From: an uncultured Clostridia bacterium
Lineage (GTDB): Bacteria > Bacillota > Clostridia > TANB77 > CAG-465
DNA length: 48,485 bases
NCBI GenBank assembly: GCA_944386635.1
Contig: CALXBV010000066.1
Coordinates: 1-48,485 of the forward strand
Direction: 5' to 3'
Of the stretch, positions 14,264-48,485 are shown piece by piece. The first letter of the stretch is position 1, and every line of letters starts with the position of its first letter. The position numbers were made by a program, and so were the translations under genes. The notes below the pieces were generated by a model. That model made no database searches. It saw only the letters and a program-made list of their open reading frames with translations, and was not told where the DNA came from.

Positions 14264-14277
14264 AAAGGGTGAGCGTT

Positions 14278-15456
14278 ATGAAAACAGTAATTGGTGTTTT
14301 TTTCGGTGGTAAAAGTGTGGAACATGAGGTGTCAATTATATCAGCATTACAAGTTATAGAAAATTTAGATAAGGAGAAATATGATATTGTTCCTATATAT
14401 ATATCTAAAGATAATAAGTTTTATTCATCACAATTTTTAGAAGATATTAACAGATATAAGGATTTAGATGAGGTGAAAAAAAGTTCAGATGAGGTATATT
14501 TTACTCATGAAAATGGAAGCTTAATAGTAAATAAGAAAGATGGAATGCTTAAAAAAGTATTATATAAAATAGATATTGCTTTTCCTGTTGTACATGGAAT
14601 TAATGTAGAAGATGGAACATTAGAAGGATTCTTAGAAATGTATAATATTCCATATGTTGGATGTGATGTATGTGCATCTGCGGTTGGAATGAATAAGATT
14701 ATATTTAAAAAAGTATTAGAGTCATCTAATATACCTGTTATAGAATATGAGACTTTAAATATATCAGAATTTGAACAAGACTCACAAAAAGCATATGAAA
14801 AAATAACAAAGAAATTGAACTTACCAGTAATAGTAAAGCCTGCAAATTTAGGTTCGAGTGTTGGAATCGAAATAATAAGAAATAGAGATGAGTTTTTATC
14901 TAAAATGCAACAAGTTTTTGAATTTTGTGAGAATGTCTTAATTGAAAGATGTGTTACAAATCTTAGGGAAATAAATTGTTCTGTAATAGGAGATTTCTCA
15001 TCTCAAGAAGTATCTGTACTTGAAGAACCAATAAAAGAAGATGAAATACTAAGTTATAAAGATAAATATATGGGAAATGGAAAGGGCGGAAAATTATCTA
15101 AGTTTGGTGGAAAATCATCTGGAATGGCATCTCTTACAAGAAAAATACCAGCAGAATTAACTAAAGATCAACAAGAAGAAATATATGATTTGGCAAAAAA
15201 TACATTTAAGCTACTTAATTGTGAAGGTGTATCTCGTATTGATTTTATAATAGATAATGATACTCAAAAAATATATGTAAATGAAATTAATACAATACCT
15301 GGATCTTTGTCATATTATTTATGGGAGCCAAAAGGATTAAAATTTAATGAACTTTTAGATAAAGTAATAAGAATAGCAATAAAAAGGCAAGAAAGAAGAA
15401 ATAAAATAGTTTATTCTACAGATGTAAATATTTTAAATATGAAAAGTAAAAAATAA
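14278..15456 (+). CDS. ddl: D-alanine--D-alanine ligase
   Basis: ATP-grasp ligase that makes the D-Ala-D-Ala dipeptide. Start set at ATG 14278 behind AAAGGGTGAG; a GTG at 14269 is in frame but overlaps that site. 392 residues. FFGGKSVEHEVS near the N-terminus, VVHGxxxEDGTLEG, VKPANLGSSVGIE and the metal motif YVNEINTIPG are all clear. The omega-loop has SYKDKY; the tyrosine at the end (about residue 264) is the residue found in D-Ala-D-Ala ligases, where D-lactate ligases carry Phe, so vancomycin-type D-Lac synthesis is not indicated. The loop carries a Gly/Lys/Ser-rich insertion. Last gene of the operon. Confidence 0.93.
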   Translation: MKTVIGVFFGGKSVEHEVSIISALQVIENLDKEKYDIVPIYISKDNKFYSSQFLEDINRYKDLDEVKKSSDEVYFTHENGSLIVNKKDGMLKKVLYKIDIAFPVVHGINVEDGTLEGFLEMYNIPYVGCDVCASAVGMNKIIFKKVLESSNIPVIEYETLNISEFEQDSQKAYEKITKKLNLPVIVKPANLGSSVGIEIIRNRDEFLSKMQQVFEFCENVLIERCVTNLREINCSVIGDFSSQEVSVLEEPIKEDEILSYKDKYMGNGKGGKLSKFGGKSSGMASLTRKIPAELTKDQQEEIYDLAKNTFKLLNCEGVSRIDFIIDNDTQKIYVNEINTIPGSLSYYLWEPKGLKFNELLDKVIRIAIKRQERRNKIVYSTDVNILNMKSKK

Positions 15457-15477
15457 AGGCGGTGGTATACCGCCTTT
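15455..15477 (+). terminator. Hairpin after ddl
   Basis: Perfect 9-base stem AAAGGCGGT / ACCGCCTTT with loop GGTAT starting at the ddl stop codon. It is the strongest GC hairpin of the region but has no U-tract after it, so termination may be partial or need the second inverted repeat that follows. Confidence 0.55.
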
Positions 15478-15483
15478 AATAGG

Positions 15484-15525
15484 TAATAGTATATAGCCCT
15501 ACGAATAAATTACTATATACTATTA
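15484..15525. repeat. 13-base inverted repeat
   Basis: TAATAGTATATAG (15484-15496) and CTATATACTATTA (15513-15525) are perfect reverse complements around a 16-base spacer. It could be a second terminator hairpin after ddl or an operator upstream of the GH18 gene promoter. Confidence 0.6.
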
Positions 15526-15582
15526 GTATTATTTCACAAAATAGATAAAAAATACTATTAAATATAAAATAGTGTAAACTTC

Positions 15583-15611
15583 TTCACAAATAATTCGTTT
15601 TATAGTATAAT
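15583..15611 (+). promoter_or_regulatory. Promoter of the GH18 gene
   Basis: TTCACA (15583-15588), 17 bases, TATAAT (15606-15611). The whole element (TTCACAAAT, then TTTATAGTATAAT) is almost repeated at 17374-17402 before the SNF2 gene. Confidence 0.6.
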
Positions 15612-15636
15612 GAACATATGTGATAGAGGTAAATTT

Positions 15637-17262
15637 ATGAAAGAAAGAATTATAGGTATTGTAAAGTGTGTTGTATTATTAGTTGTAGTAGTATTATTAT
15701 TTAATGTTATACATTACAGCACTAGACAAAATAGTAATAGTAACTCTAAATTAGTAATATTTGGAGATAATATAGATAAAAAGTATGTACCTGTTTTGGA
15801 AAATGATGATATATATATATCATTTGATACTGTATCAAGTTTTATAGATGAAGAGATTTTTTATGATGAAGAAGCTCAAAAGGTAATAATAACAAATGAA
15901 AATTATGTATATAAATTTGATTTAAATGATAAAAAGGCTACTAGAAATTTTGAAAAATATGATATAGGAACATGTGCTAAGATAATAAATGACGAGGTGT
16001 ATATTAATATATCTTTAATAAAAGATATATATAATGTAAAAACGGAATATAACGAAGAGTTAAATACAATTTCAATAGATAAGAAAGATTTAAATGATAT
16101 AAATTTAAATTATAATGGTGTAAAGTTATATAGTGATATAGATACAAATTCGCAAGTATTAGAAACATTAAATAAATATAATACAGTAACTGTATATGAG
16201 GATAGTTTAAAACATAATAGATGGTATAAAGTAAAAAGTGATACAGGGAAAATAGGGTATATAGATAAAAGTGCTGTGACTGTTATATCAGATAATGATA
16301 ATACAGAAGAGGAGGAGCCACAAAACCAAGAAAAACTAATAATGTTTTGGCAATATGGTAGTAATCTTGATACATTGGGTGATAAGATAGAGGGTGTAGA
16401 CGTAGCTATGCCAACATGGTATTCTATATCTGATTCTGAAGGAAGTGTTGAAGAAGAATATAGTGAGGACTATTATGATAAAGCCAAATCTTATGGATAT
16501 GAGATATGGCCAATAATAACCAATGGCTTCGATAAAGAGAATTTTGATAAAAAAGAGATTACATCACAAATAATGAATGATGAATCAAAAAGAGAGACAC
16601 TAATTAAAAATATAATTAAAGTAATAAAAGATAATAAATTAGATGGAATTAATATAGACTTTGAGGGTATGAAAGAAGAAGATAAATATATGTATACACA
16701 GTTTTTAAGGGAATTGTATCCTTTGGTAAGAGAAACTGGTGCAAAACTTTCTGTAGATATATATTTTACAAATTATATTGATAGACAAGGTGTAGGAAAA
16801 GCATGTGACTATGTTATGCTAATGGGATATGATCAAAGAGGTAATTGGTCAGATGAGGCTGGATCTATATCTGAGATAGATTGGGTTGAAAATAATGTAA
16901 ATTCACTAATAGAAGACTCAAACATTGATCCATCAAAAATTATATTAGGAGTTCCTTTTTATACAAGGTTATGGGAAATAGATAGTAATGGTGATATTTC
17001 AACTACAGTATTTGGAATGGAAAGCTCACGAGAATTTATTGAAGAAAATGGATTAACTGAGCAAGTAGATGAGGAGTCTGGACAACACTATGTAGAATTG
17101 GATACCAATAGTGAGACTTATAAGTTATGGATAGAGGATGCATATTCTATGTCTCAAAGGGCGGATATAGTAATTAATTATAACCTTGCCGGGATAACTG
17201 GATGGCAAAAAGGATTTGAAACACCAGATATCTGGGAAGTATTGAATGAAAAATTAAAATAA
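15637..17262 (+). CDS. GH18 glycosyl hydrolase with stalk and SH3 domains
   Basis: 541-residue exported wall or spore hydrolase. Start at ATG 15637 behind AGAGGT; an in-frame ATG 15610 overlaps the promoter. Order: membrane anchor/signal (residues 5-25), a copper-amine-oxidase-N-like stalk domain (about 40-150, VPVLENDDIYISFDTVSSFI ... VYINISLIKDIY), a bacterial SH3 domain (about 155-215, NGVKLYSDIDTNSQVLETL ... GKIGYIDKSAV) and a GH18 barrel from about 235. The catalytic motif is DGINIDFEG with Glu343 as the acid; the middle Asp of the classic DxxDxDxE is Asn, a form I associate with spore-wall GH18 proteins such as YaaH/YdhD. Likely cuts peptidoglycan glycan strands rather than chitin (inference). 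Confidence 0.85.
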   Translation: MKERIIGIVKCVVLLVVVVLLFNVIHYSTRQNSNSNSKLVIFGDNIDKKYVPVLENDDIYISFDTVSSFIDEEIFYDEEAQKVIITNENYVYKFDLNDKKATRNFEKYDIGTCAKIINDEVYINISLIKDIYNVKTEYNEELNTISIDKKDLNDINLNYNGVKLYSDIDTNSQVLETLNKYNTVTVYEDSLKHNRWYKVKSDTGKIGYIDKSAVTVISDNDNTEEEEPQNQEKLIMFWQYGSNLDTLGDKIEGVDVAMPTWYSISDSEGSVEEEYSEDYYDKAKSYGYEIWPIITNGFDKENFDKKEITSQIMNDESKRETLIKNIIKVIKDNKLDGINIDFEGMKEEDKYMYTQFLRELYPLVRETGAKLSVDIYFTNYIDRQGVGKACDYVMLMGYDQRGNWSDEAGSISEIDWVENNVNSLIEDSNIDPSKIILGVPFYTRLWEIDSNGDISTTVFGMESSREFIEENGLTEQVDEESGQHYVELDTNSETYKLWIEDAYSMSQRADIVINYNLAGITGWQKGFETPDIWEVLNEKLK

Positions 17263-17269
17263 GTATTTT

Positions 17270-17321
17270 GACTTAAATTAAAATTATACTTAATGTATAT
17301 ATTTAGTTTAAGTCTTTTTTT
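17270..17321 (+). terminator. Terminator after the GH18 gene
   Basis: GACTTAAA (17270-17277) pairs with TTTAAGTC (17307-17314), followed by seven T; the loop is long (about 29 bases) and AT-rich. Confidence 0.6.
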
Positions 17322-17373
17322 GTAAAAATAATGCATATAGTATAATTATTTTTATTAAAATTAACATAAATCA

Positions 17374-17402
17374 TTCACAAATTAAGCTTTTTATAGTATA
17401 AT
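17374..17402 (+). promoter_or_regulatory. Promoter of the SNF2 helicase gene
   Basis: TTCACA (17374-17379), 17 bases, TATAAT (17397-17402), within a TTCACAAAT...TTTATAGTATAAT element like that at 15583. The transcript would have a leader of about 85 bases, in which I see no known riboswitch. Confidence 0.6.
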
Positions 17403-17494
17403 ATAAGTTATGATATAAATAAAAATATGCTTATTAATGTCTAAAGTTATTATGGGTAATTTATTATTTTTGTTTTTTAATAGGAGATGAAAAA

Positions 17495-20400
17495 ATGTTA
17501 ATAAATGCAGAAGAAATAAATGATATTTTATTTGATGCTGGAACAGATGTTACAAATAGAGGTAAAAAATATTTTGAGCAAAATAGAGTAAAAGTAGCAG
17601 ATTTTAATTATGTATCTGAGAATAATTATATAGCAAAAGCATATGTTGAAGGAACTTATATTTATGAGGTGGAAATAAAAAAGAAAAATGGGGTCCTTTC
17701 ATATAAATGTGAGTGCCCATCTTCATCTAAAAAAGATACTCCTTGTAAACATGTTGTAGCTATGATTTTTGATATGTATATTAATGAATCTTCATATATG
17801 AATTATGATAAAAATAGTGAGTCAGCAGATATAGATGATGATGTGATAGATAATAAATCATATAAGGATAAAATAAACGAGCAAAGAGAAAATAATGGAC
17901 TTATGGCATATTATGAAAATCTAGAATTGAATAGAAATATAGATAAAGAAAGTATAGATATTCAAGCTGTATTATATCTTTTAAATGATATGAAAAAAGA
18001 ATTAGAAATATCTTTTAAAATTGGAAAAGACAGAATGTACATACTAAGAGATCTATATAAATTTAGTGAAGATATGCAAAACGGTAATATAGTAAAGTAT
18101 GGAAAAGAATTAGAATTTAAACACTCAATTGAATCATTTACTAAAGATTCTCAGGCTTTAGCTAAGCTTATAGTAGCTAAAGCTTTGGAATATAATGAGT
18201 TCTCAAAACTTGGAACATATCACTTTACATTGAATAAAAGATATAAGACTAATTTTAAGTTGAAGTATTCATTATTAGATGAAGTCTTTGACATATTAAA
18301 AGGTCAAAAAATAGTTATAGAGGGATACGATTATGAGAAAGCATATGGGATGGTAACATTAGTAGATGAGGATCCATCATTTGATGTTGAAATTGTAGAC
18401 GAAGATGAAAATGGAATAGATGTTATTACTAATAGTGATAGATACTATGTTTTTGAAGGACAAGATTATTCATATGTTTTGTATAAGGATAAACTGCATA
18501 GATGTAGTGATGAATTTAAAACAAAAGTATTACCACTTATGGAAAAATTATCAAGTGATGCGGAAGGTAAAATTACAATTTCTAAAGGCAGTGCAACAAG
18601 TTTTTGTGAATACGTTTTACCTGCTTTAAAAAATAGTACTAATATAACTGTTTCTGATGAATTGCTAGAAAAATATAAAGCAGAAAAGTTAGGTACTAAG
18701 ATATTCTTAGATATAGATGATAGAGGAAATATTGTGGCAGAAGTAAAATTTTGCTATGGTAATGATGAGTTTAATCCTTTTGATAAAGATTTAAATGTAA
18801 CATGCAACAGAAATATAATTGAAGAGGCAAGGGCAAAGGAGCTATTTAAATTATATAACTTTGTTATAAACTTTAAAAAACATATAATTTATTTATCGAA
18901 TGAAGATGATATTTATACTTTTCTAACAGAAGGTATAGATAAGTTTATGGAAAAATTTGAAGTTTTAGTAACAGATAAGCTAAAAAATAGGCAGATCATA
19001 ACTCAGAAAACGTTTAATATAGGTGTAAGAATAGAGAACAATTTCTTAGAGATGGATTTTGATGATCTAGAATTAGACGAAAATGAGCTTAAAGATATAT
19101 TTAAGAGATATAAATTAAAGAAAAAATACTATAGGTTGAAAAATGGTAGCTTTATAAATATAGATTCAGATGGTATAGGATCACTTGTAAATCTAGCAAA
19201 AACATTAAATATTACTGAAAAAGATATCGTAAAAGGAAAGGTAGAAATACCAACTTATAGAGCTTTATATATCGATAGTTTGGCTAAAAATAACGACTCT
19301 GATATGGTTATAAAGCTAGACAATAAATTTAAAGATATTGTAAAAAATATCAAAGATATAGAAGATGTAAGATATGAGGAGCCAGAAGAATTAAAAGGTG
19401 TATTAAGAGAATATCAAAAAACAGGATTTAGTTGGCTAAAGACTTTAGAAAAATATGGATTCGGTGGAATTTTAGCAGATGACATGGGACTTGGTAAAAC
19501 AATACAAATTATTGCTTTATTATTAGATGAAAAAAATAGGACATCAAAAACATCTATTGTTGTGTGTCCAAGTTCACTATATATTAACTGGGAAAAAGAG
19601 ATAAAGAGATTTTCTAGTAACATGAATACTTTAATAATATCTGGAAATGCTGATCAAAGAGAACATCTTATAGCAACAATACCAAATTATGATGTTATAA
19701 TAACTTCATATGATTTATTAAAAAGAGATATAGAAAAATATAAGAACTTTAGATTCAAATACGTTATTGCTGATGAAGCCCAGTATATAAAAAATAATAA
19801 TACTAAAAATGCAAAAGCACTAAAAGATTTAAAAAGTGAAGTAAGATTTGCTCTTACTGGTACTCCAATAGAAAATTCATTAGCAGAATTATGGTCTATA
19901 TTTGATTTTATTATGCCAGGATACTTATATACATATAAAAAATTCAAAGATGAGTTTGAAACACCTATAATAAAAGAAAATGATAAATTTGTAATGGATA
20001 GATTGCAAAAACTTGTAGCTCCATTTGTATTAAGACGTATTAAAAAGGATGTATTAAAAGAATTGCCAGATAAGACAGAGCAAATAATGTATAGTAAAAT
20101 GGATGAAGAACAACAAAAGCTATATAATTCATATCTTGCTCTAGCAAAAGTTAAAATGAAACAGGAAATAGAAGCTAATGGCTTTGAGCAAAGTAGGTTT
20201 AAAATATTATCTTTAATTACAAGACTTAGACAGATATGTTGTCATCCAAAACTATTCTTAGAAGATTATGAAGGAGATAGTGCAAAATTAAATCAATGTC
20301 TAGAATTAATTGAAGGTGCAATAGCTGCAAAACATAAAATTCTACTTTTCTCAGGATTTACTTCGATGTTTGATATAATAACTAAAGAGCTTGAAAAAAG

Positions 20401-20885: not shown

Positions 20886-20981
20886 GCTAAATTTAGAATA
20901 TATTTTTACTTTTATATAGTATATTTCTACAAAAAATTTTTTTATATGGGAGTATAACTATTGTATCTAAGAGGTGAGTAT

Positions 20982-21890
20982 ATGATAGAGGAAATATTAA
21001 AAGTACTTCCTAAATATATAGCAAGTGAAATTGTTAGAATAAACTGTACTCAAAATATAACTGAAATACGTCTAAGAACAAAAAGTAAAGTTATATTGAG
21101 GTGTATGAATACAGAAATAGTTTTAGAATGTATTGTTACAGCTAAGGCTATTTTAGAGGTATTATTAAATGTTTCTAAAAATTCCATATATGCTATACAA
21201 AATGATATAAATAATGGCTTTGTTATAATCAGAGGCGGTCATAGAATAGGAATAAGTGGAGAGGTAGTATATGTTGATGGAAAAATAAAGAATATAAAAA
21301 ATATTTGTGCTTTAAATATTCGTGTAGCAAGACAAGTATATGGTTGTGCAGATAAAGTATTACCGTATATTATACAAAACGGAAGGTTATTAAATACATT
21401 AATTGTTTCACCTCCAGGGTGTGGAAAAACAACTTTAATAAGAGATATAGTAAGACAAATAAGTAATGGAATACCTAAACTTAATTTAACTGGAAAAAAT
21501 GTATCTTTAATTGATGAAAGAGGGGAGATTGCATCAGTATATGAAGGAGTTGCAAGCCTAGATGTTGGAGTAAGAACAGATGTTATGAGTAATGTAACTA
21601 AGTCTACTGGAATGAAAATGATGGTGCGTTCTATGGCACCGGAAGTTATAGCAACTGATGAAATTGGAAGACCAGAAGATATAGTTGCTATAAAAGAGGC
21701 GATTTTATCTGGCGTTAGTGTTATATTTACAATGCATGGAGATTCATTAAATAGTATACTAAAAAATAAAGATATAAAAGAGCTTATTGATTTAAATATA
21801 TTTTCTAAGATTGTTATACTCTCTAGTGGAAAAATCCCTGGAATAGTTGAAAAAATATATGATACCTCTAAAATTGGGGGTGTAGCATGA
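20982..21890 (+). CDS. spoIIIAA: Stage III sporulation protein AA (ATPase)
   Basis: Secretion-type ATPase of the SpoIIIA-SpoIIQ channel, cytoplasmic side of the mother-cell membrane. Start at ATG 20982 behind AAGAGGTGAG; a TTG at 20961 is in frame but lies before that site. 302 residues. Walker A PPGCGKTT around 144-151, then SLIDERGEIA and a Walker-B-like VIATDEIGR, and TMHGDSL. Overlaps spoIIIAB by 4 bases (ATGA). The upstream 100 bases contain no clear sigma-A promoter; a mother-cell sigma-E promoter would be expected, but I cannot place one with confidence. Confidence 0.93.
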   Translation: MIEEILKVLPKYIASEIVRINCTQNITEIRLRTKSKVILRCMNTEIVLECIVTAKAILEVLLNVSKNSIYAIQNDINNGFVIIRGGHRIGISGEVVYVDGKIKNIKNICALNIRVARQVYGCADKVLPYIIQNGRLLNTLIVSPPGCGKTTLIRDIVRQISNGIPKLNLTGKNVSLIDERGEIASVYEGVASLDVGVRTDVMSNVTKSTGMKMMVRSMAPEVIATDEIGRPEDIVAIKEAILSGVSVIFTMHGDSLNSILKNKDIKELIDLNIFSKIVILSSGKIPGIVEKIYDTSKIGGVA

Positions 21891-22402
21891 TATTTATAAA
21901 AATTATTATAGCAATAGCTATATTATTTATTACTTCATATATCGGAATAGAAATGGCGAATTCTTTAAAATCCAGAGAAGAAATCTTAACAGATATGATA
22001 ACTTTTTTGAGAATGGTTCAAAACGAAATGATGTATATGTTAAATAGTTTACCTGTAGCATATGAAATGTCAAGGCAAAGATTAAATACACAGCTTAAAG
22101 ATGTTATTGGAGCTATTTCTTTAGATATGTCAGAATATGGAATTGATAAAATAGATATGAGTATAACAAATAATGTTAATTCTTTAAAAGCATTGAATGA
22201 ATATGATAAAGAGATTATAATTTCTACATTAAAAAATCTAGGAAGGAGTGATTTAGAATCACAATATAACATAATAGAAAATGGAATATCAATAATAAAT
22301 AAACAGATTAAAGAGGCAAACGAAATAAAAAATAAGAATTCTAAAGTATACAAAACAATAGGGGTTATTACTGGGTTAATGATTGTGATTATATTCATAT
22401 AA
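21887..22402 (+). CDS. spoIIIAB: Stage III sporulation protein AB
   Basis: 171-residue protein with an N-terminal membrane helix (residues 2-20), the SLKSREEILTDMITFLRMVQNEMMY helix typical of AB, and a C-terminal membrane helix (VIGLMIVIIFI-type). It resembles GspF-like components of type II secretion. Second gene of spoIIIA, ATGA overlap with AA. Confidence 0.9.
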   Translation: MIFIKIIIAIAILFITSYIGIEMANSLKSREEILTDMITFLRMVQNEMMYMLNSLPVAYEMSRQRLNTQLKDVIGAISLDMSEYGIDKIDMSITNNVNSLKALNEYDKEIIISTLKNLGRSDLESQYNIIENGISIINKQIKEANEIKNKNSKVYKTIGVITGLMIVIIFI

Positions 22403-22414
22403 GGAGGAATAGAT

Positions 22415-22609
22415 ATGGATATAGATTTATTATTTAAAATAGCAGGAGTAGGAATACTTGTAGCTGTACTAAATCAAGTATTGTCTAAAGCTGGCAGAGA
22501 AGATCAAGCTATGATGACAACATTAACAGGTGTAATTATTGTATTAATGATGGTTATTTCTAAAATTAGTGAGCTATTTAATACAGTAAGAGACACATTT
22601 AATTTATAG
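22415..22609 (+). CDS. spoIIIAC: Stage III sporulation protein AC
   Basis: 64-residue two-helix membrane protein: MDIDLLFKIAGVGILVAVLNQVLSKAGREDQAMM... is split by the charged loop SKAGREDQAMM, a hallmark of AC. Ribosome site AAGGAGG. Between AB and AD in the usual order. Confidence 0.93.
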   Translation: MDIDLLFKIAGVGILVAVLNQVLSKAGREDQAMMTTLTGVIIVLMMVISKISELFNTVRDTFNL

Positions 22610-22618
22610 GAGGTTGAT

Positions 22619-23002
22619 ATGAATATTTTTAAAATTGTAGGTTTTGGTATAATATCAGTTTCTTTAATAATTATATTGAAAAATCAAAAGCCAGAAATGG
22701 CACTGATGTGTGTAGTGGCAGCTTCAATTATAATGTTGCTTTTTATAGTAGATGAATTAACAAGTGTAATAGAGTTATTAAATAGATTAATAGAAAGTTC
22801 ATCAATAGATGTTAATTTTTTAAAGATAATATTGAAAGTAGTAGGAATATCATACATTGTTGAATTCGGAAAAAATATATGTAATGATGCCGGAGAAAGC
22901 TCTATAGCTAATAAAATAGAGATAGCAGGAAAAGTAATAATTGTATCATTATCCATCCCTATTATAACATCTCTTTTGGAAATTGTATCAACAGTTGTAT
23001 GA
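22619..23002 (+). CDS. spoIIIAD: Stage III sporulation protein AD
   Basis: 127-residue membrane protein with about three or four hydrophobic helices and the conserved stretch VVGISYIVEFGKNICNDAGE, ending in a LEIVSTVV helix. AGGAGG ribosome site; overlaps spoIIIAE by 4 bases. Confidence 0.93.
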   Translation: MNIFKIVGFGIISVSLIIILKNQKPEMALMCVVAASIIMLLFIVDELTSVIELLNRLIESSSIDVNFLKIILKVVGISYIVEFGKNICNDAGESSIANKIEIAGKVIIVSLSIPIITSLLEIVSTVV

Positions 23003-24171
23003 TAAAAAAGAGTATAAGATTAATTGCTTTTGTTTGTCTGTTATTTAGTTTTAGCAATGTATTGGCAGCTCAAGAAGAAATTATAGTAGAAGATAGCCAA
23101 GATGTTACACAAGATGTCGCAGATAGTTTAGAAATGGATAGTTTTTTATCTATATTTGAAGAGTATGCAGCAGAAAATGATATAGAAGATTTTAATGTTA
23201 ATACTTTATATGATGACTTAATATCTGGCCAAGGAATACAATATGATAGTATATTAAGTATTTTAGTAAATAGTATTTTTAAAGAAGTAAAAAATACTAT
23301 TAGCAGTGTAACTAGCATTTTTATTATAGTAATCATAATGGCTATTGTAACGAGTCTTGAGCTTGATAAAAATAGTGATGTTGTAAAAATTACAAAGTTA
23401 GTTATTTTTATAGCAATTAGTGCTTTACTTTTAAAAAACTATTTAGATATAGTTACAATGTTTAAAAATATTGTAAACATGCTTGGATATATAATGCAAA
23501 TTGTATCTACATTTCTTTTGGGTATACTTATGGCTACAGGAAAAATTACATCTACTGGTGTAGTAGAGCCATTACTTCTTTTTATAGCAAATTTTATATG
23601 TTTTGCTACAGAGTATATTATAATTCCATTTTTTACAATATCTATTGCAATTAATATAGTATCTAGAATATCCGAGAATATAAAGATGGATAATTTATCA
23701 TCCATGTTTAGAAAGTCATCATTATACATTTTTACAACTATTATAGGAATTTTTGTATTTGTACTTTCTATGGAATCTTCTGTTACTAAATCTATTGATA
23801 CAATATCTTTTAAAACTGCGCAGAATATGGTATCTAATTTTGTTCCCGTAGTTGGAAAATTTCTATCTGATAGTTTAGATACTGTACTTGGAGCAACACA
23901 ACTTATTGGAAAAGTAGGAGGAATAGTATCATTAGTTACAACAATAATTATTGTAAGTATTCCAATAATAAAGCTAGTGGCTGTTATAGTTTTATATAAT
24001 ATATTAATTGCAATTAGTGAACCTATAAATGAGGACAAAAGTATAGAAAACTTTTTAAAAGGGTTTGTTGGGGTATATAAAGATATGCTAGGAATTTTAA
24101 TAGGTATAATGGTTCTTTTTATAATGTCTACAGGAATTATATTAAGTATAATAAATTCAATTAGTGGATAG
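22999..24171 (+). CDS. spoIIIAE: Stage III sporulation protein AE
   Basis: 390-residue polytopic membrane protein with a cleavable-type signal (residues 4-24, ending VLAAQ), a short extracytoplasmic acidic segment, and about seven membrane helices (from about residue 100). Characteristic phrases include FIANFICFATEYIIIPFFTISIA and AISEPINEDKSIENFLKGF. Forms part of the core of the A-Q channel membrane complex. Confidence 0.92.
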   Translation: MIKKSIRLIAFVCLLFSFSNVLAAQEEIIVEDSQDVTQDVADSLEMDSFLSIFEEYAAENDIEDFNVNTLYDDLISGQGIQYDSILSILVNSIFKEVKNTISSVTSIFIIVIIMAIVTSLELDKNSDVVKITKLVIFIAISALLLKNYLDIVTMFKNIVNMLGYIMQIVSTFLLGILMATGKITSTGVVEPLLLFIANFICFATEYIIIPFFTISIAINIVSRISENIKMDNLSSMFRKSSLYIFTTIIGIFVFVLSMESSVTKSIDTISFKTAQNMVSNFVPVVGKFLSDSLDTVLGATQLIGKVGGIVSLVTTIIIVSIPIIKLVAVIVLYNILIAISEPINEDKSIENFLKGFVGVYKDMLGILIGIMVLFIMSTGIILSIINSISG

Positions 24172-24182
24172 GGGGAATATTT

Positions 24183-24686
24183 ATGTTGGATACATTTAGA
24201 AATTGGATAAATATGATACTAGCTATTGGTATACTTTTTACTGTTATACGTATAATTGTGCCTAATACCAAATTAAAAAAGTATATTTATTCTTTGATGG
24301 GAATAGTAACTATAATAGTCATCTTGGGTCCTGTAATTAATTTAGTAAAAAACGGAGATTTGAAAGACAGTTTTAAAAATATTTTTCTAAATATGGCTAC
24401 AGCAGAAACATTGAATATGGAATACACTAATTTATCTAATTATGAAGATATAAATAAAAATAATGTAAAGGAAAATTTTAAATCAAGCGTTGAAAATGAT
24501 ATAAAGCAAAAATTATCCGAAAATATTGAAAATGAAATACAAGTAGAAATAGATATTACAGATACATATAATATAGATAAGGTAACTGTGAAAGTTACAG
24601 GTGATACATCATTTGATATAGTTTCTTTTATAAATCAAGAGTATGATATAGATAAACAAAAAGTAACAGTTGAAAAAGGAGGCTAA
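24183..24686 (+). CDS. spoIIIAF: Stage III sporulation protein AF
   Basis: 167 residues: two N-terminal membrane helices (about 8-27 and 36-55) joined by a short PNTKLKKYI loop, then a ~110-residue soluble domain that ends with a beta-alpha-beta ring-type fold (VEIDITDTYNIDKVTVKVTG). Order and spacing in spoIIIA confirm the call. Confidence 0.88.
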   Translation: MLDTFRNWINMILAIGILFTVIRIIVPNTKLKKYIYSLMGIVTIIVILGPVINLVKNGDLKDSFKNIFLNMATAETLNMEYTNLSNYEDINKNNVKENFKSSVENDIKQKLSENIENEIQVEIDITDTYNIDKVTVKVTGDTSFDIVSFINQEYDIDKQKVTVEKGG

Positions 24687-24691
24687 AGTTT

Positions 24692-25222
24692 ATGAATTAT
24701 TTAGAAACCTTAAAGAATATTACTAAAGATAATAAAAGAAAAAAGGAAAATTTGATATTACTTTTAGTATTATTAGTAATACTTTTGATTAGTATTAATT
24801 ATATATTTAATAGTGATGAATCAGTACAAGAGACAACTATGGAAAATAAAGTTCAAGAGCAAGAAGAAAAAAGTGAAAATATAGAAGATAAAATAAGTCA
24901 AGTATTATCTCAAATATCCGGGGTAAGTGATGTATCAGTAATTATTAATTATTCAAATAATGGAAATACAAGTGTTGTTTATGATACAAAAGAGACTTTA
25001 AATGAGAATGGAAATGTTACTAGTGTTGAAAAAAGTGTTGCATATAATGAAAAGAGTGGCGAAAAGACTGCAATAATTCAAATGTATAATACTCCATCAG
25101 TAGAAGGAGTTATAGTAGTAGCTAAAGGGGTAGAAAGTTCAGACTTAAAACAAAGACTTGCAACAGCACTAGGAAATTTACTAGGAATAGCATCATATAA
25201 AGTTCAAGTTTTTGAAAAATAA
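24692..25222 (+). CDS. spoIIIAG: Stage III sporulation protein AG
   Basis: 176 residues: a membrane helix (about 21-41), a charged Glu-rich linker, then a ring-building motif domain (IEDKISQVLSQISGVSDVSVIINY ... VEGVIVVAKGVESSDLKQRLATALGNLLGIASYKVQVF). Forms the large ring of the feeding channel in the intermembrane space. Begins 5 bases after spoIIIAF. Confidence 0.92.
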   Translation: MNYLETLKNITKDNKRKKENLILLLVLLVILLISINYIFNSDESVQETTMENKVQEQEEKSENIEDKISQVLSQISGVSDVSVIINYSNNGNTSVVYDTKETLNENGNVTSVEKSVAYNEKSGEKTAIIQMYNTPSVEGVIVVAKGVESSDLKQRLATALGNLLGIASYKVQVFEK

Positions 25223-25235
25223 TAGGAGGTTTTTT

Positions 25236-25784
25236 ATGAAAAACAAAGAGAAAATAAAAAGGTTTGCTATGGCAGGAGCATCTTTTTGCTTTATGCTTCT
25301 TATTGCTGGATATATAAATTATAGATATAATCCAGAAAGAGAAAAAGATTTAGGTCAAACGGTATATGTGAATTCAAATAATGATCAGGTAGATATATAT
25401 AATGATGCACAATCTACAAGTAGTCAGGCAGATGAAACAATAGCATCTTTTAGATATGATAGAGATAATATGTATTCTGAGCTTTCAAATAACTATTCTG
25501 ATATTATAAATAATTCAAATTCTACTGCAGAAATTGTATCAGAGTATCAAAATAAACTCAGTGAGTTGATAGAGGAAAAAAATCAGATTATAATGGTTGA
25601 AAATGTAATAAGATCTAAAAATATAGAAGATGTGGTAATAATACCTACAACTAGTGGAAAATATAATGTTATAGTAAAAACAGAGGAACTAGATGAAACT
25701 TTAGTAGCACAAATAATGCAAATAATAGTAGATCAATTAGGTGTTGATGCAAATAATATAAGTATAGAAAAGATAAATATGTGA
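25236..25784 (+). CDS. spoIIIAH: Stage III sporulation protein AH
   Basis: Mother-cell ring protein that binds forespore SpoIIQ. The start chosen is ATG 25236 behind AGGAGG (25224-25229); an upstream in-frame TTG at 25212 would overlap spoIIIAG. 182 residues: one membrane helix (about 9-25), a flexible Ser/Asp/Gln-rich linker, a coiled region and a C-terminal YscJ/FliF-like domain (IEDVVIIPTTSGKYNVIVKT). Last gene of the operon. spoIIQ itself is not in the window. Confidence 0.92.
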   Translation: MKNKEKIKRFAMAGASFCFMLLIAGYINYRYNPEREKDLGQTVYVNSNNDQVDIYNDAQSTSSQADETIASFRYDRDNMYSELSNNYSDIINNSNSTAEIVSEYQNKLSELIEEKNQIIMVENVIRSKNIEDVVIIPTTSGKYNVIVKTEELDETLVAQIMQIIVDQLGVDANNISIEKINM

Positions 25785-39416: not shown

Positions 39417-39420
39417 TAAT

Positions 39421-39453
39421 AAAAAGTATCTCTTATTATAAGAGATACTTTTT
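39421..39453. terminator. Bidirectional terminator
   Basis: AAAAAGTATCTCTT pairs perfectly with AAGAGATACTTTTT around loop ATTAT. Poly-A and poly-T on the two flanks serve both the cysK transcript and the minus-strand VirD4-like gene ending at 39462. Confidence 0.85.
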
Positions 39454-39461
39454 ATTTAATT

Positions 39462-41963
39462 TTATTTTTTATTTCTTTTTATTATTGGTGACTCATAATG
39501 TTCTGTTATAGCTCCACCATTTCCTTTCTGATCTATAGTAACATCACTATTTTCAAAAACTATTTCAAAATCTTGGTTATTTTCGTTTTGTGTATAATCA
39601 GTTCCTGTGGAAATAAAATCTGGATTATTATTAACATTTGAAGCTGTTGAGTTCTTCTTTATTTCCTCTTTTAAACGATTAGTAGTATTTACTCCAAATA
39701 AGTTATCATCATTTGTTGAAGAATCACTATCATTCATAGTTATAGTTGGTGAATCAGGTTTTGACATCATATATTTTTCAAAGTTAAACATAAGTGTATT
39801 TTGATGTTGTTTATATTTATCTGCCAAGAAAGAAGTCTTACCTTCACCAAATACAGTTTTACCATTTGCAGTTTTAGTTTTATAGAACATTGAACCAAAT
39901 CCAAGTTCTGCAAGTTTGTGTTTTTTAATTCTTTCCTTATCTTTAACAACTATCTTTGTAGGTTCAGCTTTAAATCCATCAGTTGGATCAATCTTATATG
40001 AAGTAGAAGAATCTACTTTCTTTTCCATACCAAAAGCCTCACTCCAGTATTCACTATCTTCTTTTACTGTATCACCAAATACAATTTGTGTTTTAGTATT
40101 TGCAAGTACAGTTTGTCTGTAATATGAATGACCAGATTTTTCAAGCTGAGATAAGTTCTGAATTGCAACTGTAACACCACATCTATATTTTCTAAATAAA
40201 GTGAACATAACTTCCATATCTTTTGTAATATATTCAGGAAACTCGTCTATATATAAGAAATGAGGTGTTCGAGATTCTTCATTACCTTTTCTTCTAAGTA
40301 CAGCGTCTTGGAATTGTAGAATAAAGAACATACCAAATGCTTTTGCTTGTATAATACCAAGATCACCTTTTCTAGAGCAAGCAGTTATTACACTACCATT
40401 TGCTAATGCTTTATCAAAATCTATTACATTTTCCTTACCACAAAGTGCAGCTTTTAGTCCTGGATTACGTATCAAGTTATTAAGCTGTGTGATAGCACCA
40501 TATAGATATTTTTCGGTATCTTTTCTACCACTACCACGAGTACCTGGTATTTCATATCCATTTATATTTAAACTTGGTTTGTAGAAATTCTTTTCAAAAT
40601 ATTTTATTAATAATTTATATTTTTCTGCTAGTTCAGGAATTTTTTTCATTTCCTCTGTCATCTCTTCTACAGCATCAAAGTTATATAATAGTTCAAGCAT
40701 ATCTTCAAGAGATGCCATCTCACCATTATGAAGTACAGGATACATTTCTTTTAATAATATAGATAAGTTTTGGAATGCATCAATAGTTACTTGAGTAAAG
40801 AATGGATCGCTACTTCCTTTTTGATCGTACATTGCCATAAGAACGTCTGCTACTATAGATGCTGCCTTTGCAGGATCTGGAATAGCAAATGGATTTATAC
40901 TAAGTGTTGTCTCTGGGCTTGCAGGATCAATAGATAAAACATCTATATCAAAATTCTTAGCTACCCCAATAAATTGAGATATAAAGTTACCATCATTTTC
41001 AACTATTGTTATACCTAAATTTCTATAAGTAACTTCTCCTGTAGCATTATCTACATACTGCACTAAAGGCCTTACTTCTTCTTCAAATTGTTCTTCCATA
41101 CCAGTTTTTGGCTTTAGCATATTTAAAGAAAAGTTCCTATTAATGTATCTATTGTCATAAGGTCCATTCATATATGCAATACCTTTTTTTAGCATAGAAT
41201 ATCCAATTTTTTTAGCATATTCTCTAAAGAAGAATTTCTTTTCAAGATCTAATGCACTCATAGGAAGTAGAACTGTTGCAGTTTTACCTGTACCTGTAGC
41301 ACCTTGAACTAGTGTTGCTTCATAACGTTTTTTCTCTGGTACAACTATAGGAACAGAAGTTCCTTTTGCAACACCTATTACAGTATCACAGTCAAAAGCA
41401 CCATTCTTTTTTCCACCAGAGCTTACTGTAAGTCCGACATATCCAGCTATTGATTTTAGTAAATCTTCATCATTATATACAGATAAAACAAAATCTATTA
41501 TATAAGTTATTGATATAAATGGAATAAGTAATGTTATAGATTTTACAGCTGGTGGAATAAATTGTGGATAAGTAGTTAATACTTGTTCATATTTAGGTAA
41601 TGCCTCTAATACGTTCCAAATAATCCAATTCATTGTTCCACTTATTGCATATAATACAGGTATCGCTAAGAGAATACATGTTAAAATAAACATTTTTACC
41701 TTATCATCATCATTTTTAGCTAATCCCGAATTTACGTAATAAGAAAAAGCTAATGCTGGGATTATAAATAATATAGAAATAACATATGGAATAGGCGAAT
41801 CTATAGAGATATTATCGCTCATATGTATATTTCCAGCAGCTAAGCTTAAAATTTTAGCTAAACAGAAAAAAGCTACTACTATACTAATGGCATAAAGTAT
41901 ATAAGTTAAAATCTTTTCTGGTTTAACTGAAATATGTAACTTTTTAAAAAGTTTTTCTATCAA
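39462..41963 (-). CDS. VirD4/TraG-type coupling ATPase (orphan)
   Basis: 833 residues. Four membrane helices (about 20-42, 58-78, 90-110, 142-163), then the ATPase: Walker A GATGTGKT (221-228), preceded by VPIVVPEKKRYEATLVQ, a substrate-binding all-alpha insert, Walker B PHFLYIDEFPEYI (about 567-576), TKTQIVFGD and a long disordered Asn/Ser/Thr-rich tail (from about 735). This is the domain order of type IV secretion coupling proteins. No relaxase, VirB4/VirB6 or attachment site lies nearby; its neighbours are cysK and pth. TTG start with GGTGAT upstream. The role without a T4SS is unknown. Confidence 0.88.
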   Translation of the reverse strand: MIEKLFKKLHISVKPEKILTYILYAISIVVAFFCLAKILSLAAGNIHMSDNISIDSPIPYVISILFIIPALAFSYYVNSGLAKNDDDKVKMFILTCILLAIPVLYAISGTMNWIIWNVLEALPKYEQVLTTYPQFIPPAVKSITLLIPFISITYIIDFVLSVYNDEDLLKSIAGYVGLTVSSGGKKNGAFDCDTVIGVAKGTSVPIVVPEKKRYEATLVQGATGTGKTATVLLPMSALDLEKKFFFREYAKKIGYSMLKKGIAYMNGPYDNRYINRNFSLNMLKPKTGMEEQFEEEVRPLVQYVDNATGEVTYRNLGITIVENDGNFISQFIGVAKNFDIDVLSIDPASPETTLSINPFAIPDPAKAASIVADVLMAMYDQKGSSDPFFTQVTIDAFQNLSILLKEMYPVLHNGEMASLEDMLELLYNFDAVEEMTEEMKKIPELAEKYKLLIKYFEKNFYKPSLNINGYEIPGTRGSGRKDTEKYLYGAITQLNNLIRNPGLKAALCGKENVIDFDKALANGSVITACSRKGDLGIIQAKAFGMFFILQFQDAVLRRKGNEESRTPHFLYIDEFPEYITKDMEVMFTLFRKYRCGVTVAIQNLSQLEKSGHSYYRQTVLANTKTQIVFGDTVKEDSEYWSEAFGMEKKVDSSTSYKIDPTDGFKAEPTKIVVKDKERIKKHKLAELGFGSMFYKTKTANGKTVFGEGKTSFLADKYKQHQNTLMFNFEKYMMSKPDSPTITMNDSDSSTNDDNLFGVNTTNRLKEEIKKNSTASNVNNNPDFISTGTDYTQNENNQDFEIVFENSDVTIDQKGNGGAITEHYESPIIKRNKK

Positions 41964-42009: not shown

Positions 42010-42038
42010 TTGACATATTAACTTAATTCATATATAAT
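42010..42038 (+). promoter_or_regulatory. Perfect consensus sigma-A promoter for pth
   Basis: TTGACA (42010-42015), 17 bases, TATAAT (42033-42038): an exact consensus. Its -10 overlaps the -10 of the divergent VirD4-like promoter. Confidence 0.8.
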
Positions 42039-42065
42039 GATACTATAAAATACTTATTTTTTCAA
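42037..42065 (-). promoter_or_regulatory. Promoter of the VirD4-like gene
   Basis: On the minus strand TTGAAA (42065-42060), 17 bases, TATCAT (42042-42037), 74 bases before the TTG start. Confidence 0.55.
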
Positions 42066-42126: not shown

Positions 42127-42660
42127 TTGAAAATTATAGTAGGACTTGGAAATCCTGGAAAAGAATATGATATGACTAGACATAATGTAGGATGGATGGC
42201 ACTGGATTATCTAGCTTCATTATATAATGTAGATATTACTAAAAGTAACTGTAATTGCTTAATGGGTCAAACAGTTATAAATGGAGAAAAAGTAGTTTTT
42301 GCAAAGCCATTGACATATATGAATTTAAGTGGAAATGCTGTAGTCGCATTAAAGAATTGGTTTAAAGTAAATAATGATAATATACTTATTATTTTTGATG
42401 ATGTAGATATACCATTTGGAACTATTAGATATAGGCAAAAAGGAAGTGGTGGTACTCATAATGGAATGAAAAATATAGTGCAAATGCTTTCGAGTGAACA
42501 GATACCAAGAATAAGAATTGGACTTGGAGGATTAAAACATCCTAAACAAGATATGGTAGATTTTGTCTTAGAAAAATTTAAAAAGGATGAAATAAAAAAA
42601 TTAAATGAAGATGTTTTTGTACAAGTAGAGTCAAAATTTAAAGAATTTCTTGACAATTAA
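42127..42660 (+). CDS. pth: Peptidyl-tRNA hydrolase
   Basis: Releases peptides from prematurely dropped tRNA. 177 residues, a little short (185-195 usual). [20 protein letters not shown] carries Asn9 and catalytic His19; [10 protein letters not shown] and FDDVDIPFG (Asp91) follow, and the C-terminal [24 protein letters not shown] start is fixed by the conserved N-terminus. The usual neighbours (mfd, spoVT) are absent. The rplU promoter is buried in its last codons. Confidence 0.95.
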
Positions 42661-44215: not shown

Positions 44216-44256
44216 AAAAAATAAAGCTTGAATATTTTTTCAAGCTTTATTTTTTT
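44216..44256. terminator. Bidirectional terminator
   Basis: AAAAAATAAAGCTTG (44216-44230) pairs with CAAGCTTTATTTTTT (44241-44255), loop of 10 bases; poly-A and poly-T flanks serve both convergent genes. Confidence 0.85.
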
Positions 44257-44633
44257 GTCATTATTGCTATTCTATTCCGAGATAATATATTCATATCAGT
44301 TGCTATAAATGTTTTAGCTATTCCATATGCATAAATACGAATATAGTTTTTATTATCTAATATAGCAACATTTTTTGGAGCAATTTTAGAGATTACTTCT
44401 TTTGCATAATCTTCTTTTACATTTGTATTTCCATGATTTATTAGTACAGATTTTATATTTTGGAATTTCTTTAACAAATCTATTAACTCTTCTTTTTTTG
44501 CATGTCCAGAGAACTCGTTTGTAGAATATACTTTAGCTACTTTTTTAACCATTAATCCATTTAAATTAAATATTTCATTATTTTTTAGTTGCTTTAATTT
44601 TCCACCGAAGACTATCTGGTGTAGTATATCCAC
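44247..44633 (-). CDS. Beta-CASP RNase, C-terminal part (after frameshift)
   Basis: Downstream part of a split gene; see the N-terminal part at 44578-45768. In this frame the protein reads GGKLKQLKNNEIFNL, then VYSTNEFSGHAKKEELIDLL and VLINHG, which are the C-terminal motifs (SGHA histidine, HG) of the MBL/beta-CASP family. The only start is a GTG at 44633 without a ribosome site, so it is not expressed as a separate gene. Skipping the C at 44607 joins the two parts to a 506-residue protein. Confidence 0.75.
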   Translation of the reverse strand: MDILHQIVFGGKLKQLKNNEIFNLNGLMVKKVAKVYSTNEFSGHAKKEELIDLLKKFQNIKSVLINHGNTNVKEDYAKEVISKIAPKNVAILDNKNYIRIYAYGIAKTFIATDMNILSRNRIAIMTKK

Positions 44634-45768
44634 AAAAAATTATGCTACATTTTGGTCTTGTTATATAATATGGTAAATAAGTTTGAGCGGGTCCATAATT
44701 TCCCATGCCAGAAGTAGTTAAAATGATTTTGCATGATCTATCTTGCAGTAATTTTTCTCTTTCTATATTATCTTTTACAAAGTGAAAGTTTTTTGGTAGA
44801 AAATTTTGTACATCTTTATCTTTCTTTAAAAATTCTTTATGATTTAAATAGAAATTAGTATAACTATAGGAAAGCTTTCCATCAGCAAATATTGGTATAG
44901 ATTCATCAAGTAATTTTTCGTTTTGTAGCTTTTTTAACTCGTAAGGTATTTCTTGAGCTCTTCCTTGAGAAAATACCGTAACTATACATGTTTCCTTATT
45001 TTTTATTGAGTTTAATAAATCATCTTTAAAGGTATAAGATATTGTATTTTTACTAGTAGTTCCATAAGTTGATTCTTGAATAATATTTATTGGAAGATCA
45101 TAAATATCGTTTTTTTCTTCTACATCAAACATTCTATTACTTACAGAATAATCGCCTGAGAAAAATAAATATATTGGGTTTTCGTTTTTGTAAGTTATAG
45201 TAAGTAATATAGATGCAGCTCCTAAAAGATGAGCATTAGGAATAAATGTGACATTTATATTATCAGTTATTTTAAAAGCAGAATTATATTCTTTACCAAT
45301 AACATTATTCATCACGTTTTCCACGTCTGTTTGATCATATAAAATATCATTATTAATAAATACGGGAACAGAAGCATCAGCCATTATTTTTTTATATTTA
45401 TTTGGATTCTTTTGGAAAGAATAAGATAGTATTTCAGCGGTATTATATAGAGCAAGAGGCATAAGTAGTGATGTTATTTTACTAGCATAAATATTTCCTC
45501 TAAATCCATCTTTATATAGTTTTGGAATACGTCCTACATGGTCTATATGGTTGTGTGTTACAAGTACAAATTCAATTTCTTTTGGATCAAATGGAAATGA
45601 GTAATTTTGAATCTGATAATTTTCTTCTTGAAATAGGCCACAATCTACTAGAAATTTAATTTTTTTCTTGTTTGGAAATCTAACTGTACATATTATGCAC
45701 GATCCTGTTACTTCATTGTGTAAAGATATAATGTCAGCATACATATTTGTTTTGTTTTTATTTCCCAT
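44578..45768 (-). CDS. MBL-fold beta-CASP RNase, N-terminal part (frameshifted)
   Basis: Zinc-dependent RNA nuclease of the RNase J/CPSF-like group. 396 residues before the premature stop. MBL motifs: THNHIDHVGR (H72, H74, D76, H77), PNAHLLGAAS and FSGDYS. Beta-CASP motifs: VFSQGRAQEIPYEL and TTSGMGNYGP with IIFCGYTTPDSL, after which the frame departs at CTT CGG (44610-44605). ATG behind AAAGGAGGAATTTTT. The remaining domain is encoded in the overlapping frame. This is either a +1 frameshift site, a true mutation or a one-base sequencing error. Confidence 0.85.
   Translation of the reverse strand: MGNKNKTNMYADIISLHNEVTGSCIICTVRFPNKKKIKFLVDCGLFQEENYQIQNYSFPFDPKEIEFVLVTHNHIDHVGRIPKLYKDGFRGNIYASKITSLLMPLALYNTAEILSYSFQKNPNKYKKIMADASVPVFINNDILYDQTDVENVMNNVIGKEYNSAFKITDNINVTFIPNAHLLGAASILLTITYKNENPIYLFFSGDYSVSNRMFDVEEKNDIYDLPINIIQESTYGTTSKNTISYTFKDDLLNSIKNKETCIVTVFSQGRAQEIPYELKKLQNEKLLDESIPIFADGKLSYSYTNFYLNHKEFLKKDKDVQNFLPKNFHFVKDNIEREKLLQDRSCKIILTTSGMGNYGPAQTYLPYYITRPKCSIIFCGYTTPDSLRWKIKATKK

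Positions 45769-46021: not shown

Positions 46022-48485
<2,464 letters not shown>

Follow-up and report, generated by a model that had tools for sequence, protein, structure and literature searches.

Chromosomal type IV secretion systems (T4SSs) have been described in the Patescibacteria (PMC12102498), including Southlakia epibionticum (PMC12857230), where VirB1, VirB3, VirB4, VirB6 and VirB8 components accompany arrays of VirB2-like pilins. Most of these systems have no relaxase, and the coupling-protein gene usually lies far from virB4 (PMC12102498). Gram-positive T4SSs have been reviewed as being without VirB2 pilins, the Patescibacteria excepted (PMC12857230). Coupling ATPases of the TrwB/VirD4 type, such as those of R388, H. 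pylori (Cag-beta) and Legionella (DotL), are recognised by their fold, Walker motifs, membrane region and TraG-D_C motif. Relaxases of the MOBC class combine a winged helix with a restriction-endonuclease-type active site (PMC12857230), and the Replic_Relax family corresponds to MobC of CONJscan (PMC5357655). In Thermus thermophilus, TdtA transjugation moves chromosomal DNA between cells using a motor ATPase and a nuclease partner, with no classical relaxase (PMC5365140).

We analysed a 48,485-nucleotide stretch of DNA (the window) from an uncultured Clostridia bacterium of the order TANB77 (hereafter the order). One of its genes, here called T4CP1, is likely to encode a coupling ATPase of the VirD4 class that serves a T4SS fixed in the chromosome across the order. 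We favor this reading because of the fold and motifs of the protein, its conservation under selection, a T4SS locus close by and the partners it shares with plasmid relatives. The relevant features of the window are:

39462-41963, minus strand: T4CP1, a VirD4/TrwB-type coupling ATPase of 833 aa with a TTG start (ORF, Pfam, motifs, AlphaFold model, fold match)
41445-41921, minus strand: N-terminal membrane region of T4CP1, predicted helices, residues 15-173 (AlphaFold secondary structure and sequence hydrophobicity)
39804-41405, minus strand: motor domain of T4CP1, residues 187-720, superposing on TrwB (Z 26.0, rmsd 3.5, 376 aligned)
41280-41303, minus strand: Walker A motif GATGTGKT, residues 221-228
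40239-40262, minus strand: Walker B motif HFLYIDEF, residues 568-575
39465-39761, minus strand: disordered C-terminal tail, residues 735-833 (pLDDT under 50 across most of it)
42037-42065, minus strand: candidate T4CP1 promoter TTGAAA-17-TATCAT (consensus matches only)
42010-42038, plus strand: pth promoter, 12/12 consensus, back to back with the T4CP1 promoter (consensus matches only)
42127-42660, plus strand: pth, divergent neighbour conserved in families f1 and f5; not a component of the system
39418-39456, no strand: candidate terminator between the convergent genes cysK and T4CP1, an 18-pair hairpin with a T-rich stretch after it
47049-48458, plus strand: obgE, at the right end of the window; the next gene in the relative G015 is the first gene of contig C41

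Judged from its sequence, the reading frame at 39462-41963 is a genuine gene; its TTG start and the preceding ribosome-binding sequence GAAAGNGGTGAT are conserved in 7/7 orthologues inspected. The protein matches TraG-D_C (5e-11), T4SS-DNA_transf (6e-11) and TrwB_AAD_bind (2e-5), each above its own Pfam cut-off, and its Walker motifs, A (GATGTGKT) and B (YIDEF), hardly vary across 45 homologues. An AlphaFold model built from these homologues (mean pLDDT 77) has a RecA-like motor and hydrophobic helices at residues 15-43, 58-79, 85-121 and 136-164, the four helices together providing the predicted N-terminal transmembrane region (15-164) of a coupling protein. Its best solved structural match is TrwB (Z 26.0, rmsd 3.5 Å, 376 residues); further matches include Cag-beta and the Legionella coupling complex. 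Pfam, motifs and model alike therefore bear out the original prediction of a complete coupling ATPase that has both Walker motifs, four helices and a long disordered tail. A sequence search of the PDB returned no match, and in the NCBIfam CD1115 VirD4-like conjugal transfer family the protein scores 41.9 bits, below the curated cut-off of 250 bits.

As predicted, T4CP1 lies between cysK on one side and pth on the other. It is probably, from its sequence signals, a one-gene transcription unit divergent from pth, because it has its own candidate promoter and a terminator-like hairpin before cysK. Whether the gene always sits beside one of these neighbours had been posed as a check: it is divergent to pth in families f1 and f5, and the gene on the opposite side varies. 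No tRNA was found in the window, and an Rfam search of 34-48.5 kb gave no element. Elsewhere in the window, a spoIIIAA-AH sporulation operon (20961-25784) indicates that the lineage retains spore-formation genes despite its small genome, and a beta-CASP/metallo-beta-lactamase gene (44247-45768) is split into two frames where the relative G015 has a single 507-aa frame.

To establish how widely the gene is distributed, we searched 251 near-complete genomes from this order, nearly all with a completeness of 95% or more. T4CP1 is present in 238 of them at E <= 1e-30, representing 40 of 41 genera. Among 57 relatives, 53 gave matches at E <= 0.001, some of these being the weak paralogue T4CP2 only. 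When 391 Clostridia were drawn evenly from the class, the matches were members of the order and two weaker outsiders, one full-length and one fragmentary. Family f1 genomes without T4CP1 usually have no pth either; five of them (G005, G009, G013, G020 and G029) have neither gene, and we regard the missing T4CP1 as an assembly gap because pth is absent too. An apparent co-loss of T4CP1, VirB4 and RR (a replication-relaxation protein, see below) in four of these (G005, G013, G020 and G029) was dropped once the pth search showed the whole region to be missing from the assemblies. In family f2 (G040 and G044; L058 and L063), T4CP1 occurs as a tandem duplicate.

Comparison of the window's genome (G000) with G015 gave a dN/dS of 0.054 for T4CP1, indicating strong purifying selection; the corresponding values were 0.015 for RR, 0.036 for the S1-domain protein encoded beside it (S1), 0.077 for VirB4 and 0.11 for pth. 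A phylogeny, proposed earlier as a check against the coupling proteins of integrative and conjugative elements (ICEs), placed the T4CP1 sequences of the order apart, with support 1.0, from plasmid proteins, T4CP2 and ICE-type coupling proteins. On these genome comparisons, T4CP1 is a chromosomally fixed lineage trait, vertically inherited across the order. The view that it was not recently transferred is upheld. Its GC content is 0.28-0.33 over most of the gene, like its neighbours, its chromosomal position is fixed, and it is present in 238/251 genomes; the pattern that would have told against that view, presence in a few strains inside an ICE, is replaced by an order-wide, conserved locus.

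The gene had also been called an orphan, and this description fails: a T4SS with VirB4 is located at a distance of about 18-25 kb in its own genus and of about 11 kb in genus g2. Contig C41 carries the T4SS locus in the genome from which the window comes. We place this contig at the right end of the window because the gene order of G015 continues from obgE, the last gene of the window, into the first gene of C41; across this junction the first T4SS pilin is about 18 kb from T4CP1. Distances from T4CP1 to VirB4 are 19.7 kb in G015, 23.7 kb in G026, 24.9 kb in G017 and 23.7 kb in G014 (all genus g1), 11.2 kb in G028 (g2) and 72 kb in one g3 genome, so that the T4SS lies 11-25 kb away in five of the six genomes that carry both on one contig and for which the distance was measured.

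The locus encodes three two-helix, VirB2-like pilins (T4SS_pilin PF18895 / TrbC PF04956), PrgI (VirB3-like), and a split VirB4 consisting of an N-terminal-like protein and an ATPase of about 664 aa (P-loop_TraG/AAA_10). Also present are VirB6-like membrane proteins with weak Pfam support, two VirB8-like candidates assigned from position and topology only, a VirB1-like protein of 1046 aa that matches lysozyme and CHAP, and a divergent M23 peptidase. Counting all loci, VirB4-like ATPases occur in 57/57 genomes of the order. Between the T4SS locus and the S1-RR gene pair, G015 encodes two large surface proteins (L116:8349-13964 and 14091-18512) that carry 10 and 7 SpaA domains plus a sortase-like tail; both are candidate adhesins.

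We further searched 72,556 plasmids by tblastn. Relatives of T4CP1 were found on 68 plasmids, all Bacillota among the matches listed. Forty-four plasmids have a close relative of VirB4 (E at most 1e-50), and at least 41 of them belong to these 68 (by a hypergeometric test, P about 1e-127, a value overstated in that some plasmids are related). T4CP1, S1, RR, VirB4, PF18895 pilin and PrgI co-occur on Bacillota megaplasmids such as Thermoanaerobacterium pMU3262, Sporosarcina pSP10-266k and those of Priestia and Cytobacillus. Their T4CP1 homologues are mostly 22-33% identical to those of the order and their VirB4 proteins 27-33% identical over about 90% coverage; S1, RR, PrgI and T4SS_pilin are likewise homologous, and the S1-RR adjacency is the same. 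On pMU3262, S1 and RR are adjacent, the RR homology is significant, and an operon encodes pilins, a weak PrgI match and a DUF87 VirB4. The Sporosarcina plasmid has the order Replic_Relax (replication-relaxation protein), T4CP1 relative, S1, RR (a second replication-relaxation protein). The megaplasmids differ in having a catalytic-looking Replic_Relax gene and replication and partition genes, whereas the set of the order is chromosomal, split over two or three sites and vertically inherited.

MOB-suite typed 65 of the 68 T4CP1-bearing plasmids as non-mobilizable. On NC_017998.1, NZ_CP146247.1, NZ_CP061869.1 and others, mostly so typed, we observed a pilin-PrgI-VirB4 operon, a coupling protein and Replic_Relax proteins. 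From this gene content, these Bacillota megaplasmids probably encode an under-recognised conjugation system.

In the order, the S1-domain protein and RR form a conserved gene pair. In g1, g4 and g5 this pair occupies the far end of the T4SS locus; in g2 it adjoins T4CP1, and in f5 it is close to T4CP1. RR is found in 48/57 genomes, including that of the window (contig C89). Its match to Replic_Relax (PF13814) exceeds the cut-off in 16/57 genomes; in the genus of the window, the scores fall short of it. Comparison of the RR profile with single plasmid proteins gave mostly no clear match, and BLAST through pMU3262 provided the link. Like MOBC relaxases such as pAD1 TraX, RR belongs to the Replic_Relax family and has an N-terminal winged helix (Z 9.8 in its model) with a weak restriction-endonuclease-like match: almost all VIA-align matches are winged-helix proteins, and the putative nuclease-like half is represented by weak Foldseek matches (E about 3e-3). 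Unlike them, it is without the D..ExD catalytic acids of a PD-(D/E)XK-type site. Only one glutamate, E209, is invariant in the order, with V at +2 and no invariant acid in the preceding strand; RR of the Sporosarcina plasmid has a similar E-x-V-R....W signature. The D..ExD..T..K motif is retained by the relaxase-like Replic_Relax proteins of the plasmids and not by RR of either the order or the plasmids. By alignment, then, the catalytic motif of RR is degenerate.

The PF13814 profile matched only RR itself in 57 order genomes, with no second Replic_Relax, and PF03432 found no relaxase in G000 (77% complete), the sole genome checked for that family. No catalytically intact relaxase was thus found with PF13814 in 57 genomes and PF03432 in G000, and the chromosomal T4SS is apparently relaxase-less. 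Both mating-pore genes and a relaxase had been named as the genes whose discovery outside the window would overturn the original prediction: the former are there, VirB4 being found in 205/251 genomes, and for the latter we recovered only the degenerate RR. With no intact relaxase among our matches, the proposal of a chromosomal export function not described for this lineage may still hold in modified form. Our literature search found no description of this T4SS in this order.

We propose that membrane-anchored T4CP1 would collect a cytoplasmic substrate and feed it to the VirB4/VirB6 channel. On the substrate side, RR, through its winged helix, and S1 may be adaptors that bind nucleic acid, and the pilins, with the two SpaA-repeat surface proteins in G015, may serve contact. 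Such a machine could be a conjugation system that the order's ancestor domesticated. A plasmid-type catalytic-looking relaxase gene was not found, and export would therefore no longer start with the same oriT nicking. We give roughly even weight for and against the substrate being chromosomal DNA or nucleoprotein passed to neighbouring cells. Nucleic acid is the somewhat likelier cargo because RR and S1 are retained and strongly constrained. The fullest version of this proposal, an order-wide, vertically inherited machine bearing VirB2-type pili and exchanging chromosomal DNA between cells with no classical relaxase, RR and S1 presenting the DNA to T4CP1, is offered tentatively and may well prove wrong.

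That proteins are the substrate is a serious possibility, if one we would not bet on. The same T4SS would then export toxins, adhesion or signalling factors, or build a contact pilus, as has been suggested for Patescibacteria and reported for Streptococcus suis, and would move no DNA. We hold this account to be credible but short of probable. The VirB2-like pilin array, the two SpaA sortase-type surface proteins (7 and 10 domains) near the T4SS locus in G015 and the failure to find a catalytic Replic_Relax relaxase all fit it, as does the precedent of the Patescibacteria, whose T4SS is likewise chromosomal and mostly relaxase-less (PMC12102498). However, the DNA-binding-type RR and S1 persist across the order, with constraint among the strongest in the set, and no effector family was identified.

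The order also has a second VirD4, T4CP2 (L079-L083 and L085; G000:C53:976-3087), present in nearly all of its genomes and located in genus g1 in the dnaX-ybaB-recR region. Several genomes encode it in two pieces, a membrane ORF of about 165 aa and an ATPase ORF of about 510 aa. T4CP2 could serve the same channel as T4CP1, which may then not be the sole coupling protein. It is even conceivable, if unlikely, that the chromosomal T4SS relies mainly on T4CP2 for coupling and that T4CP1 has an accessory role with a special substrate, in a division of labour between DNA and protein. T4CP2 is the canonical VirD4 of the two, scoring 430 bits in the CD1115 family against the cut-off of 250, and is nearly universal in the order; yet it is encoded in the unlinked dnaX/recR region, and the close plasmid relatives of VirB4 travel with relatives of T4CP1. 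A second chromosomal VirB4-like ATPase of 534-571 aa (L097:9494-11098, minus strand, on G000:C21; and L109) adjoins M16 peptidases and a 375-aa P-loop protein, in an order conserved in G000 and G015, and is possibly the partner of T4CP2.

We consider it improbable that T4CP1 works independently of any T4SS, as an FtsK- or HerA-like DNA pump in chromosome segregation or repair. Its motor fold is common to HerA and FtsK and its gene probably forms a unit by itself. Across the 251 genomes, T4CP1 and VirB4 are not strongly associated (196 have both, 42 T4CP1 only, 9 VirB4 only and 4 neither), so that 42 of the 46 near-complete genomes in which VirB4 was not found retain T4CP1; in these 42, VirB4 may be missing through gaps in the assembly, or the machine may have been lost while the ATPase stayed. 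Nevertheless, the closest folds are T4SS coupling proteins, at Z 26 for TrwB versus about 19-21 for HerA/FtsK (TcpA and FtsK reach about 19, in a comparison that covers the shared motor domain only), and T4CP1 co-occurs with this VirB4 on plasmids and is linked to S1-RR. Finally, we think it very improbable that T4CP1 was left behind, or is carried, by an ICE or some other mobile element: the T4CP1 family is otherwise known from megaplasmids and genuine ICE-like loci (L112-L115) exist in some relatives, but the gene is fixed beside pth in two families, order-wide and under strong constraint (dN/dS 0.054), with no relative in IMG/VR contigs, one marginal match among phages and no tRNA in the window.

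A T4SS that is order-wide and apparently relaxase-less points to a cell-to-cell function selected in the host and not in a mobile element. The hosts are abundant, almost wholly uncultured gut bacteria, and T4CP1, VirB4, RR and S1 offer concrete genes for asking what is transferred between them. On the plasmid side, current typing has probably missed a conjugation system on large Bacillota plasmids labelled 'non-mobilizable'.

Returning to the known systems, T4CP1 is only 13-16% identical to TrwB/VirD4 proteins, from which it also differs in its long disordered tail and in being a lone gene apart from its machine. The Thermus TdtA system resembles ours by analogy only, as it uses a HerA-type pump encoded on an ICE and has no T4SS (PMC5365140). 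In contrast to the reviewed picture of Gram-positive T4SSs (PMC12857230), pilin genes are present together with PrgI and VirB4 in this order of Clostridia and in its plasmid relatives. Among the features of the Patescibacteria-type T4SS, pilins, PrgI and VirB4 were found in the order and VirB6 weakly, the absence of a relaxase extending across genomes for PF13814 only. The Patescibacteria are ultrasmall epibionts of another phylum, whereas the order consists of Clostridia with sporulation genes and genomes of 1-2.4 Mb. Even so, their T4SS appears to be the nearest described parallel, being likewise chromosomal, pilin-bearing and mostly relaxase-less with a coupling gene at a distance.
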